Source of the DNA: Desulfovibrio sp. JC010
Lineage (GTDB): Bacteria; Desulfobacterota; Desulfovibrionia; Desulfovibrionales; Desulfovibrionaceae
Direction: 5' to 3'
Length of the DNA: 64,000 nucleotides
Assembly: GCF_010470675.1 (NCBI RefSeq)
Contig: NZ_VOIQ01000001.1
Location: forward strand, 62,001 to 126,000
The notes below the pieces were generated by a model, which made no database searches, was not told the origin of the DNA, and saw nothing but the letters and a program-made list of their open reading frames with translations. Shown here piece after piece: positions 25,980 through 30,624 of this stretch; position 1 is the first letter of the stretch; each line of letters opens with the position of its first letter. The translations under genes were made by a program, and so were the position numbers.

Positions 25980-26217
25980 AATAACCCCGATGATATTCGG
26001 ATGTAAAAAGAGTTTAATTTGTCCGGCACATTTAGTACAAACAAATTTATACAATGATTAAAAAGAAATGACGACTGCACCGAAGTAAGGTGCGGGCAGA
26101 ATTTTCAAGAAATAAAAGGTCACAGGCAGGACTGTGAAGAAACGGACTGAAAAGCAGTCTGCGGTTGAAGACAATTAACCGGAAAAACAGCAGGCTTGTC
26201 AAGCCTTGGAGACAACC

Positions 26218-28719
26218 ATGCCACGATGCGCACACAAAGGACTGACCCTCATCCTCTTTATTTTGCTGTTCAGTTTTTCCACTACCCCGGAATCACAGGC
26301 AGAAACGGCCACTGAAACACTACTTAACATGGTCAATACCCTTGAAGCGGATATTCAGCACCAGGAACAGATTGTCACGGAGATCAACAAGAACAGCCCC
26401 TCCATGACAGCCAGATATGAACAGCGGCTGCATAAAGCGCAAGTCCGTATGGATCAGCTGAAGATGCTGCGTGGAATGGCCAAACAAACTCCGTGGTCCT
26501 ACCGCACGGTTCTCATGCAGCTGCATGATCTGGGCTCATATGTGCGGCTGGCAAAAGCCGATCTGCTTATTGAAAAAAACAGACTGAAAAAAATAAAAGC
26601 CGGTTTTGACGTAATCAATGAAATTCATTTCAAAACAAAAATCACAGACCCTCTGCTCAAACAAAAACTCATTGAAACCAAAACTGAATACGAAAGAGTC
26701 CGCGACGATGCCTCTGCGGTGAAAAGAAATCTTGATGCAGAGCTTGAAAAGTCAGACCGGCTGATGGAGTACATAACAGAGGCAACCAAGGTCACTGAAA
26801 AATTCTATGCATCCACCCTGAAACGGTTTTACTTCCAGCCGCACCTGATTCTGTTTTTTCCACAGGCCTGGAAAGATATTTCATATTCATTTGCTGAATG
26901 GCAGGAAAGTTATACCAAATTTTATCACCCGCTCATTGTCTGGGTTGAATGGGGAAATTTCCTGCTCATCATGTCCGGCATAACTGTCTTTCTCTGGCTG
27001 ACCCTGCGCTATCTGGTGAAAAAAATGCTGCGCCGCCCCATGTTCAGCAAGCATCAGCTTTCATTTTATAATAAAGGTTTGTTCCTGATCTCACTTGGCG
27101 CAGCAATCCTCTTTGCCCGCTTCTTCACCCTGTTTACCGCCAATCAGGTTACCGGGCTGGTCTGGACCGAGATCATCACCCTCGGGGCAATCATATGCAC
27201 CCGCAATTTCCTCTGGGCGCGGGAAAAAGTTCAGCCCGCCCCGTTGATTTACACGCCCATGTTCATCCTCTGGAGCCTGATGACCGCCGGGGATATAATG
27301 CACATGCTGACCCTTCCGGCGGAATGCCTATCCGTAATCTGGTTTGTACTCAGCCTGAGCGGACTGGCCGCCCTGCACTTTAACCGCAGAAGATACGTAC
27401 TTCCGATCACGCAGGCCACATCACAGGCAAACAAAGTAATACTCGGCAGCGGAGCACTGCTCACACTGGTCGGTTTCGGTACTCAGGCCATGATCCTGAC
27501 CCAGATCTGGTTTCTCTTTCTGGTGACCATGAAAATATGCACTGCTCTGAAAACCATTATGATCACCGACCTGCCGCAGCCGGAATATCTGCCCCCGGAA
27601 GAAGAACCTGATGCTGAGCAGCAGGTAAAAATGGAACAGGCATACCGGCAGGCCCGGCACCATAACCAGATGGTCCAGCTCTTCTACCCGCTTTCCATTT
27701 CAATCATAATCTTCCTGTTTATCGGCTGGGCTACAGCCTATATGGGCGGCATTCCCTTTGCCCACTTTGTATTCCGGCATCTGGACATGAATATTGCCGG
27801 GGTGGATATATCGGTAAAAAACATCTCTTATATCCTGATCCTCTTTTTTGCCGCACGACTGGCCCTGTTTTGGCTCAAGTCATTTGTCAGCAATGCTTCC
27901 ATTAACGGGCAGCGCATTGAATCGGCACTGGCCCACACCCTTTCCACCATCGGATCGTACATCGTCTGGGTGGTCTTCCTGCTGACCTCATTCTTCCTGC
28001 TGGGCATTCCCATGTCCGCTCTGACATGGATCGCCAGCGGCCTCTCCATCGGTATCGGTTTCGGCATGAAGGATATTGTCAGCAACTTTGTCAGCGGACT
28101 GATCATCCTCTTCGGCGGTTCCATAAAAAAAGGCGACACCCTGCAACACAAGAAGATTATCGGCACTGTGGCTGATGTCTCCATCCGCAACACCACCATC
28201 AAGGCGTTGGATAACAGCATGGTCATCATCCCCAACTCCAGCTTCCTGAAAGGGGAAATTGTCAACCTCAACTATCAGGACACCCGCATCAGGGCGACCA
28301 TTCCCCTAACCCTTGTCCCCGGTTCAAAGGTCAAGAAAGCCAAGAAAATCATGATGAAAGTGGTTAAAAAGCATCCCAAGGTACTCAAAGATCCTGCCCC
28401 CAATATCCTTTTCAAAAGGTTCGGCACCTTAGGCCTTGATTTTGAGATACTTTTCTGGGTCAGCCACTTTGAGGATAAATTCCCCACGGAATCAGATATC
28501 GTGGATGAGCTTGACCAGAAATTCCAAGGCAAGAAAATCAAAGTCGCCTTCCGGGGAGTCAAGACCAAGTACAAACCTAAAGGCGACGAAGCGGCCCAGA
28601 TTGCGGCCAGGCGAGAAGCACTCAAAGAAAAGCGAAAGCTGGTCAGCAAATGTTTCAGGTCGGCAGCACTGCGCAAGCACAGGTTTCTGAACAAAATCGA
28701 AATGGATAAGCCTGAATAA
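26218..28719 (+). CDS. Large mechanosensitive channel, MscS/MscK type
   Basis: The 833-residue protein has a signal peptide, a periplasmic coiled-coil-rich N-terminal domain (about 25-230, like the DUF3772/MscK sensor), several membrane segments and a C-terminal MscS core with GIGFGMKDIVSNFVSGLIILF (pore-lining helix) and a beta domain (VADVSIRNTTIKALDNSMVIIPNS). It should release solutes under hypo-osmotic stress. The ATG at 26218 has GGAG 6 bases upstream; a TTG four codons earlier is less likely. It is monocistronic and ends at a strong terminator. Confidence 0.88.
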   Translation: MPRCAHKGLTLILFILLFSFSTTPESQAETATETLLNMVNTLEADIQHQEQIVTEINKNSPSMTARYEQRLHKAQVRMDQLKMLRGMAKQTPWSYRTVLMQLHDLGSYVRLAKADLLIEKNRLKKIKAGFDVINEIHFKTKITDPLLKQKLIETKTEYERVRDDASAVKRNLDAELEKSDRLMEYITEATKVTEKFYASTLKRFYFQPHLILFFPQAWKDISYSFAEWQESYTKFYHPLIVWVEWGNFLLIMSGITVFLWLTLRYLVKKMLRRPMFSKHQLSFYNKGLFLISLGAAILFARFFTLFTANQVTGLVWTEIITLGAIICTRNFLWAREKVQPAPLIYTPMFILWSLMTAGDIMHMLTLPAECLSVIWFVLSLSGLAALHFNRRRYVLPITQATSQANKVILGSGALLTLVGFGTQAMILTQIWFLFLVTMKICTALKTIMITDLPQPEYLPPEEEPDAEQQVKMEQAYRQARHHNQMVQLFYPLSISIIIFLFIGWATAYMGGIPFAHFVFRHLDMNIAGVDISVKNISYILILFFAARLALFWLKSFVSNASINGQRIESALAHTLSTIGSYIVWVVFLLTSFFLLGIPMSALTWIASGLSIGIGFGMKDIVSNFVSGLIILFGGSIKKGDTLQHKKIIGTVADVSIRNTTIKALDNSMVIIPNSSFLKGEIVNLNYQDTRIRATIPLTLVPGSKVKKAKKIMMKVVKKHPKVLKDPAPNILFKRFGTLGLDFEILFWVSHFEDKFPTESDIVDELDQKFQGKKIKVAFRGVKTKYKPKGDEAAQIAARREALKEKRKLVSKCFRSAALRKHRFLNKIEMDKPE

Positions 28720-28720
28720 A

Positions 28721-28752
28721 AAAGGGGGATTGCCTGAGCAATCCCCCTTTCA
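28721..28752. terminator. Terminator between channel gene and rhodanese gene
   Basis: AAAGGGGGATTGC pairs with GCAATCCCCCTTT around CTGA, flanked by A-rich and T-rich tracts. It serves the channel gene and the converging minus-strand rhodanese gene, whose extended stop codon (28757-28759) lies 5 bases away. Confidence 0.9.
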
Positions 28753-28756
28753 CTTT

Positions 28757-29167
28757 TCACTTTGATTCAACGGGATAATCGAACCTGTGCCACTGGTGCC
28801 AGCCCCCCAGAAGCGCGTTCACATTGCTGAAACCCAGCTTCTTCAACTTTCGCCCCACACGGGAGCTTGTGTATTCGCTGGGTCAGGCACAGTAGATGAT
28901 GATCTCCGCATCCTTGGGCAGGTCGGCAGACCATTCCTTTTCCTTACCCGGCTTGCCGCGTATGGCGCCCTTGATCTTCAATTGGCTGCCCCGCCAGTCG
29001 GAACCGGAACGGGAATCTACCACCACAACCCCTTCCGACCCGAGCTTGCGTTCCAGATAATCCGCAGAAACCCGGAGAACATCTGCCGCATTTGCGCAGA
29101 CAGGAAAGACCATGAAACTCGCCGCAGCAACAACAGCAACGGCAAGTAATATCAAACGGTTACCCAT
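28757..29167 (-). CDS. Exported rhodanese-like protein with in-frame TGA at catalytic Cys (probable selenoprotein)
   Basis: The 136-codon frame has a signal peptide (MGNRLILLAVAV...CANA, cut near 27), a single rhodanese domain (VVVVDSRSGSDW, IKGAI) and the active-site strand IIIYCA followed by TGA (28883-28885). After the TGA the same frame continues PSEYTSSRVGRKLKKLGF, SNVNALLGGWHQW and ends at TGA 28757-28759. Related rhodaneses read YCACPxE with the catalytic second Cys where the TGA lies, so selenocysteine (residue 95) is the natural reading. If TGA were a stop, the protein would lose its catalytic loop and last helix. It lies downstream of the sequence's GGGAGG site and would act in the periplasm on sulfur or selenium transfer. 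A nonsense mutation is the alternative. Confidence 0.75.
28833..28882 (-). promoter_or_regulatory. Candidate bacterial SECIS element
   Basis: Directly after the UGA, CCCAGC (28882-28877) can pair with GCUGGG (28838-28833). Inside it, UACAC (28873-28869) pairs with GUGUG (28860-28856) around the loop AAGCUCCC. Position next to the UGA and size (50 nt) suit a SelB-binding hairpin; the fold was derived by eye only. Confidence 0.45.
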
Positions 29168-29198
29168 TATTACCTCCCGGTATTTTGATAAACAAAAA

Positions 29199-29224
29199 GA
29201 AAGCGAACCCTGAGGCTCGCTTTC
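29199..29224 (-). terminator. Terminator after the polytopic membrane protein gene
   Basis: GAAAGCGA and TCGCTTTC form an 8-bp stem with an inner CC/GG pairing; on the minus strand a TTTTT tract follows. Confidence 0.8.
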
Positions 29225-29274
29225 ATAATATCAGATCAAAATGGTAGGACAAGTAAAAAACGGCAATAGCCGGA

Positions 29275-30624
29275 TTATTTATAACTGACGATGTTCAAAT
29301 CTTCGTCTTCAGGATCGTCCTGCACAGGATCACTCTGTTCCTTCTCGATAATTTCCCCGGTCTCAGGGTCAAAGACAGGCTCGGCTTCAGCTTCTTCGGC
29401 TTCTTCCAAGGGAGGATAGTTGCAATACTCCTTCATACTGAAACCAAGGGCAATACCGGCCACGGCCATGCAGCCCACAGCGTAAAGGAAGTAATTGGTA
29501 AATTCAATATGCAGACAGCAGACTGCCGCAGCGATTGCATGCAGAGCCAGAGTAAGCAGACGGGGCAGGTAAAAGCGTCCGGCCTTGCGCATGGCGATGA
29601 TGCCCAACAGATCGATAAGTGCGTAGGAACCGAACCAGAAACAGAGTCCTGCGGAAATCAGGGATTCAAGTTCATCTTTTCCGGCCCAGCCTTTGGCAAG
29701 CATGACAGCGATCACGCCACCGATAAAAACAGCGGCCCCCCCGGCGGCATAACGGGAATAATTTTCAGCAACAACCCCGCGCACCCGCTGCCCGAAAAGC
29801 TGGAATAGACCGAAAATAGCTGCAAAGGTTGCCAGAATAATTGTTCCGCCCATAAGCAGACGCCCTTTGCCCTCAAGTACATGGCCGGCGACTTTGAGAT
29901 GGGGAACGGTGGTTCCGAGCAGACCTTCGGGAGTTTCAACCAGCAGGGCCGCCCAGCTGAAAAGGGCAAAGGCAACCAGAATCAGAAAAATAGCAGGATA
30001 GGCCCGTGAACTCTTATTTTCAAAAACCAGCGGCAGATCAAAGCCGATGAAAACCAGCACAGCCAGAAAGACCAGCTGCATCCAGCCCACGGGACCGGCT
30101 TCCAGCAGCCCGGCAGGAAACAGCGGAGTGAAAAATTCCGGCAATGACGTCGGATAGCCCATTCCCCCGGCAACAGGCTGATTAACCATAACCGCTACAT
30201 ATACAAAAGAAAGAAAAGCCAGAGTCAGACTGCCCCCGAAAAGGTCCCCGGCATACTTATCATTCAGAAAACAGGCCCAGACGGCGACAGCAAGTATGGT
30301 GAAGGACGCCGCGAGATTGGGAAATGAACTGAGAAAAATTTCGTTGAGTCCGTACCCTGCAATCCCCAGCCAGGAAACAGCCAGAACGGTCAGGGTAAAA
30401 AAACGAGCTGCATCAAGAAATCCGAAGGCCACACGGTCCACAGGGGTTGCCCGCAGTTCCCCGGAATTAAGTTTATCAATGCTACGCGCGGTGCAGACAG
30501 ACACAAGCGCGGCCAGAACCAGCAATCCCATAAAAACAGCTCCGCCCAGCCCGGCACCGTGCCCGACAGCTTCAAGCCCTCTGGGGGACAGCATCACTGC
30601 GAGTGATGTAAATATTCCGCTCAT
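29275..30624 (-). CDS. Uncharacterised polytopic membrane protein (transporter-like)
   Basis: The 449-residue protein contains about 12 hydrophobic segments and a C-terminal acidic cytoplasmic tail of about 50 residues (PPLEEAEEAEAEPVFDPETGEIIEKE). The helix layout and Gly-rich first helices recall amino-acid/polyamine permeases (APC superfamily), but no diagnostic motif is visible to me. GGAGG lies 5 bases before the ATG. It is transcribed alone, with a terminator after it. Confidence 0.7.
   Translation of the reverse strand: MSGIFTSLAVMLSPRGLEAVGHGAGLGGAVFMGLLVLAALVSVCTARSIDKLNSGELRATPVDRVAFGFLDAARFFTLTVLAVSWLGIAGYGLNEIFLSSFPNLAASFTILAVAVWACFLNDKYAGDLFGGSLTLAFLSFVYVAVMVNQPVAGGMGYPTSLPEFFTPLFPAGLLEAGPVGWMQLVFLAVLVFIGFDLPLVFENKSSRAYPAIFLILVAFALFSWAALLVETPEGLLGTTVPHLKVAGHVLEGKGRLLMGGTIILATFAAIFGLFQLFGQRVRGVVAENYSRYAAGGAAVFIGGVIAVMLAKGWAGKDELESLISAGLCFWFGSYALIDLLGIIAMRKAGRFYLPRLLTLALHAIAAAVCCLHIEFTNYFLYAVGCMAVAGIALGFSMKEYCNYPPLEEAEEAEAEPVFDPETGEIIEKEQSDPVQDDPEDEDLNIVSYK

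Follow-up and report, generated by a model that had tools for sequence, protein, structure and literature searches.

A putative exported rhodanese of Desulfovibrio sp. JC010 with a predicted selenocysteine in a C-x-U motif, encoded next to an APC-fold membrane protein

A family of rhodanese-like proteins with selenocysteine (Sec) predicted in a CxU motif has already been catalogued. In its table of selenoproteins, a 2026 review (PMC13188914) lists NF041203 as 'Rhodanese-like domain-containing protein form 3, CxU', predicted, with accession TKB26178.1, and the corresponding table of PMC9312934 gives the same family as COG0607 form 2, with motif CxU and accession TKB26178.1. Sec likewise occurs in a rhodanese-like protein in TsoB (NF045694), a rhodanese/DsbD fusion-like selenoprotein, for which the table of PMC13188914 gives the motif UxxxxU, whereas the protein described here carries CxU and scores 17.3 bits against the TsoB model (cut-off 805). 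Among proteins of known structure, a profile search matched the small rhodanese 1qxn ('sulfide dehydrogenase') with an E value of 1.3e-7. We take 1qxn to be the periplasmic Sud polysulfide-sulfur transferase of Wolinella, a protein with one cysteine and no Sec; a common substrate for Sud and the protein described here would be an analogy at most. E. coli GlpE (1gmx) and the classical rhodaneses have the same fold (Pfam Rhodanese) and, to our knowledge, neither Sec nor a C/U-x-U pair.

The window analysed here, a stretch of 64,000 nucleotides, contains a gene of the NF041203 family (Table 1). Its coordinates had been given correctly in the preliminary description, which named no strand; the gene lies on the minus strand and runs from 29167 to 28757, and reading 28757-29167 on the plus strand revealed no rhodanese. 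The read-through translation comprises 136 residues, with U95 in IIIYCAUPSEYTSSRVGRKLKKLGF...LGGWHQW followed by a TGA stop, and agrees with the earlier observation of an in-frame TGA after IIIYCA, 41 further codons and an LGGWHQW end. With the UGA read as Cys, the protein matched Pfam Rhodanese (PF00581) with 42.1 bits (gathering cut-off 22.2). The read-through protein reached 147 bits with the NCBIfam equivalog model NF041203, rhodanese_LYCAU or 'rhodanese-related (seleno)protein' (cut-off 115), and a six-frame search of the genome with this model gave one match above the cut-off, with 139.5 bits. A search of a plasmid collection returned two poor matches and was uninformative. Very probably the product is a small selenoprotein of family NF041203 with a rhodanese fold, whose export to the periplasm we infer from the sequence. 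The family, catalogued with its Sec as a prediction, is thereby joined by a member that nothing sets apart, with Sec in the same Y-C-A-U motif. The preliminary description had noted that rhodanese selenoproteins were proposed from metagenomes; this understates what is known, given the curated NF041203 model and the table entry in PMC13188914.

Table 1. Features of the rhodanese locus, in window coordinates
Feature	Position	Strand	Basis and remarks
Sec rhodanese gene	28757..29167	-	ATG at 29167, 136 codons, UGA as codon 95, stop TGA at 28759-28757
Putative N-terminal signal peptide	29090..29167	-	Hydrophobic, ending ...ANA/AD; peptide and cleavage site called by eye; helix 2-18 in the model
In-frame UGA, predicted selenocysteine 95	28883..28885	-	Motif Y-C93-A-U95-P-x-E98; read-through translation and aligned relatives
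TGT codon of Cys93, putative partner residue	28889..28891	-	TGA in the 12 phylum-sample rows with two TGA and no other stop
Predicted apical SECIS stem-loop GCUCC-CGUGU-GGGGC	28852..28866	-	Nucleotides 17-31 past the UGA; covariation and fold
Larger hairpin, outer stem ACCCAGC/GCUGGGU	28832..28883	-	Fold of this genome's sequence; outer part unconserved in relatives
Terminator-like hairpin between membrane-protein and rhodanese genes	29199..29224	-	Consensus scan: 2 hits against 1.0 expected from shuffling
Weak sigma-70-like promoter match	29225..29252	-	9/12, consensus match only
APC-fold membrane protein	29275..30624	-	449 aa, about 11 hydrophobic segments; next gene upstream, same strand as the rhodanese

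A search of the source genome (4.39 Mb, 64 contigs) revealed selA (612 bits), selB (392 bits), selD (332 bits, with one internal TGA) and a tRNA-Sec (82.5 bits), which ARAGORN also called as tRNA-SeC with anticodon tca. The genes selA, selB, selC and selD, for which the preliminary description had proposed a search, taking a lack of selB or selC as refuting its reading, are thus all found. Across the host family, selA was above its cut-off in 227 of 288 genomes, including all 33 that carry the Sec rhodanese. The ability to use Sec is therefore widespread in the family, and the rhodanese, found in 33 genomes against 227 with selA, is one optional client of this machinery.

Searching the same 288 genomes (E 1e-8 or better) gave matches in 40 of them and 41 match rows, of which 33 contained exactly one TGA and eight none. 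The TGA falls in the same aligned column in all 33 TGA-bearing rows. The eight TGA-free rows comprise two orthologues with Cys (YCTCYDE; L047 and L049) and six weaker matches (E 1.8e-10 or worse), three of which were examined and are distant rhodaneses. At residue 95, where it had been proposed to look for Cys in homologues, close relatives thus share the TGA and two orthologues of the family have Cys. Within the host genus the Sec rhodanese is present in 9 of 17 genomes.

Beyond the family, 91 of 395 genomes of a phylum sample gave a match at E 1e-10. The 133 resulting rows consist of the window sequence, 81 examined rows and 51 mostly weaker rows that were left out; the set of 82 contains all 12 rows with two TGA and only part of those with one, so that the 12 are over-represented in it. 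In addition, contigs were scanned with a pattern requiring Tyr-Cys-Ala-UGA, Glu98, Thr100 and Ser101 (AGY). This detected at least 119 stretches, from which at least 123 Sec rhodanese rows were aligned; among the matches listed were Desulfobacterota-type sequences, Acidobacteria, Gemmatimonadetes, Chloroflexi, Nitrospirae, one Planctomycetota and others. Pattern-found stretches were excluded from the 105-sequence covariation set, the tree and the motif frequencies described below. Alignment A2 (42 members, pattern-selected rows) shows no variation at Asp51, Gly121, Gly122 and Trp126; its invariance at Tyr-Cys-Ala-UGA, Glu98, Thr100 and Ser101 is built in by the selection pattern and uninformative. 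More than one Sec rhodanese copy was found near each other on one contig in each of L104, L152 and L055. A further relative (L238) has its UGA one codon further on (YCCSUSGNNS) and shows four of the five stem pairs described next.

A hairpin directly after the UGA had been proposed, with an outer stem CCCAGC/GCUGGG and an inner stem UACAC/GUGUG. The outer stem is present in the minimum-energy fold, as ACCCAGC/GCUGGGU; the inner stem is absent from it and pairs in 67.4% of cells among 105 relatives, against 99.2% for the alternative stem GCUCC/GGGGC. Fold z scores were -2.94 for a 54-nt stretch, -0.06 for 42 nt, in which the outer stem is incomplete, and -1.49 for 81 nt. An Rfam search of 28600-29400 gave two matches far under the gathering scores, which were put down to chance.

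Covariation was analysed in the 48 nt after the Sec codon in 105 unique sequences, of which the family contributed 32 and the phylum sample 73, stacked without gaps on the Sec codon; eight SECIS stretches aligned with MAFFT came out of register, and that alignment was set aside. The stacked sequences revealed a stem of five pairs between nucleotides 17-21 and 27-31, whose loop contains an invariant G. Versions of this stem slid along the sequence paired in 24-62% of cells, and none of 500 shuffles equalled it. Two-sided changes numbered 63, whereas the 500 shuffles averaged 20 and never exceeded 32. The strongest signal among all column pairs was that of 18-30, the third positions of a Ser AGY and an Ala GCN codon; in the 89 sequences with those codons the pair is C-G in 43, U-A in 44, U-G in one and C-A in one (Fisher p 4e-23). 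No protein constraint accounts for this pattern, and the persistence of covariation at purely synonymous positions argues for selection on the stem at the RNA level. The residues encoded at pair 19-29 mostly change along with the RNA: of the 105 sequences, 83 have Ala/Ala, seven Ser/Gly as in the window, six Val/Ala, three Thr/Val and six other combinations.

The stem also follows the residue encoded at position 95. Of the 94 C-x-U rows, 90 have all five pairs and the other four have four; all 12 U-x-U rows have five, compared with none of five C-x-C rows, which keep one to three pairs; this small control includes the near-copies L047 and L049, and one row (L148) that comes from the pattern-selected set and whose register is off by one residue. 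Where residue 95 is Ser or Ala, two to three pairs are left. These data support the prediction of a bacterial SECIS after the UGA. The conserved TGA column, the NF041203 score, the Sec machinery and the covarying stem bear out the original suggestion of a Sec rhodanese; the evidence for Sec is strong, and an exported rhodanese that contains Sec explains the sequence far better than any alternative.

For the membrane protein encoded directly upstream, neither Pfam nor NCBIfam gave a match at E 0.01. A profile built from 22 such upstream neighbours reached the APC transporters 3gi8 (MJ0609; presumably ApcT), 6f2g and 3ncy (AdiC), the match to 3gi8 having an E value of 4.5e-8 over most of the length, and five of the 22 aligned members matched AA_permease_2. 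Residues P14, G21, G25, N94-E95 and P102-N103 are invariant among the 22. Among loci whose upstream ORF was retrieved, a homologue of this permease lies directly upstream of the rhodanese in 18 of 34 from the family, 11 of 73 from the phylum sample and 5 of 90 found by the pattern; three members of the permease cluster that do not adjoin a rhodanese (L141, L146, L236) were left out of these counts. In the 288 genomes of the family the permease profile found 42 rows. Of these, 23 score more than 220 bits; the remaining 19, at 43-205 bits, of which three were examined (L269-L271), were taken as other transporters of the fold. Of the 23 permease genomes, 19 also have the Sec rhodanese, and the two genes are adjacent and on the same strand in 19 of 19, a result partly favoured by the profile, which was built from rhodanese neighbours and includes 10 of the 19.

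We consider it probable that this APC-fold protein is the partner of the rhodanese. The alternative, that it is a chance neighbour held in place by synteny, is less likely and keeps appreciable weight. The linkage is patchy in the phylum and pattern-found loci, and in 14 of the 33 family genomes with the Sec rhodanese no permease match was found anywhere at E 1e-10, so that the permease is not obligatory. In the window, a terminator-like hairpin between the two genes weakens the operon reading for this genome and is in line with a chance neighbour; inspection of loci L018-L021 by eye revealed no T-tailed hairpin. Against mere synteny, order and strand remain the same although identity to the permease of the window ranges from 18 to 79%, with gaps of 5-173 nt and one of 493 nt. 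Four genomes (G208, G209, G210 and G146) have the permease without a rhodanese at the locus, or elsewhere at E 1e-8. Three of these four break N103 and G315, residues common to all 22 paired permeases, in columns that were picked from the paired set; such breaks would fit relaxed selection once the partner was lost. The unpaired permease of G210, which breaks no conserved column, speaks for the chance neighbour. Its gene abuts, as judged by eye, a mechanosensitive channel gene that in the window sits beyond the rhodanese. This MscS/MscK-type gene (26206-28719, plus strand) is convergent with the rhodanese gene in the window, and a homologue is the next gene in eight family loci.

To describe the active site, an AlphaFold2 model with Cys at position 95 was used (pLDDT 93.1), which shows a strand at 88-92, a loop at 93-98 and a helix at 99-110; rhodaneses were on top of its PDB matches. 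The preliminary description had placed the UGA at the catalytic cysteine. This agrees with 6mxv, whose cysteine is in register with U95 by profile and by single sequence, whereas the cysteines of 3nhv and 6pfz are in register with C93, which directly follows the model strand. The active-site loop seems to be about two residues longer than usual. U95 is probably catalytic, and we read C93 and U95 as one active site.

In the mechanism that we propose, SelB and Sec-tRNA would bind the apical stem-loop, leading to Sec insertion at the UGA, and the protein would be secreted to the periplasm. The selenolate of U95 would take up sulfane sulfur, whether from a persulfide, polysulfide or thiosulfate, and the Se-S adduct would be resolved by the nearby C93, two positions before it, so that the pair would act as a selenenylsulfide redox couple with electrons supplied by another envelope protein. 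The APC-fold protein may carry a sulfur compound across the inner membrane or relay thiols; its part in this scheme, as the electron partner or as a carrier of substrate or product, has less weight than the preceding steps. For the C93-U95 redox couple itself we see about even chances. Less probable, though to be taken seriously, is that Sec is inserted into a single-nucleophile sulfurtransferase in which C93, structural or surplus, takes no part in a redox couple with U95. The rhodanese fold is compatible with this, and known single-domain rhodaneses work with one cysteine. Against it, residue 93 is C in 68, U in 12 and another residue in two of the 82 phylum rows, in which two-TGA rows are over-represented. 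Its repeated change from Cys to Sec argues for chemistry at this position.

The 12 phylum-sample rows with two TGA and no other stop (L199, L211-L221) all read Y-U-x-U, with UGA also at the codon of Cys93, in the arrangement UGA-NCC-UGA followed by one stem. L199 and L222 represent the same place, and a further U-x-U copy was found in L104, from the pattern-found set. All nine U-x-U rows that were scanned (eight and L219) are above the NF041203 cut-off. For NF041203, the table in PMC13188914 gives one Sec, compared with two in these members. A quick tree of 115 rows (rows with C-U, U-U, C-C, C-S or C-A at 93/95 and at least 85 residues) requires nine changes for the U-x-U state, at least five of them forced by starred branches; being based on few columns, it gives a rough number of origins. 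The distance of the stem from the second UGA is unchanged in the U-x-U rows, and one stem would therefore serve two UGA codons six bases apart.

Redox work rather than a single nucleophile is also indicated by fusions to cytochromes. The rhodanese frame continues into a CxxCH-rich protein in three U-x-U members (L218, L219, L221) and one C-x-U member (L223); L218 and L219 match NF041203 over their first 135 residues, and Pfam multi-haem cytochrome models were hit in L219 and L221. Since attachment of haem c takes place outside the cytoplasm, the fusion to multihaem cytochrome c supports an envelope site and a redox role. Two of the fusions, searched at E 0.001, gave no match to TIGR04315, the octahaem cytochrome selenoprotein listed in PMC13188914. 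Outside the window, the same genome encodes a second rhodanese with an in-frame TGA (L224:6531-7553; contig C3, about 218.5-219.6 kb), a Sec candidate with the motif CRSFRU-LRS (C-x4-U). It lies downstream of genes for a PhsA-like molybdopterin reductase, an iron-sulfur protein and a triple rhodanese with CxxxxC motifs, and its N-terminal part resembles TsoB (95 bits, cut-off 805).

Two further explanations deny Sec altogether. That the TGA is a plain stop, the gene being truncated or a pseudogene and the remaining frame a relic, is very improbable. Gene calling with UGA as a stop does yield only a 94-residue ORF (78.3 bits with NF041203), as the preliminary description had expected of automated annotation. 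The 41 sense codons after it would stay open by chance with a probability of about 0.14 at this composition; taken alone, the open frame past the UGA is poor evidence, and that the observation is real follows from homology and conservation and not from the open frame by itself. Against a plain stop stand the identical TGA column in 33 of 33 rows, the conservation of the downstream positions Glu98, Thr100 and Ser101 (each about 98% by codon in the 105-sequence set, which was not pattern-selected) and the covarying stem. A sequencing error is still more improbable, as the TGA, although one base away from TGC or TGT, recurs in separately assembled genomes of several phyla, and the stem, which Cys homologues lack, is intact here.

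Within the sections of the literature accessible to us (including PMC13188914, PMC9312934, PMC1088965, PMC2398784, PMC8318568, PMC5029168 and PMC1794560), which was queried by terms other than permease and cytochrome, we found no U-x-U rhodaneses, permease pair or cytochrome fusion. The permease neighbour, the U-x-U members and the cytochrome fusions suggest an envelope redox enzyme for sulfane sulfur. More tentatively, and with somewhat less confidence than for the redox couple alone, the rhodanese and the APC-fold protein may form a two-part envelope module for the traffic of sulfane sulfur (or selenium), in which C-x-U would cycle via a selenenylsulfide, while several lineages would have turned to a U-x-U diselenide couple served by one SECIS, or to wiring to multihaem cytochromes.

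The CxU rhodanese selenoprotein has so far been a prediction in the review tables of PMC9312934 and PMC13188914. The locus offers handles on it: the adjoining permease gene, for knockout jointly with the rhodanese; C93, a second residue that has naturally been turned into Sec; and the synonymous covariation (43 C-G and 44 U-A of 89), which opens the SECIS to silent mutations. The twin-UGA members (UGA-NCC-UGA) would provide a compact natural case of one SECIS for two Sec codons.
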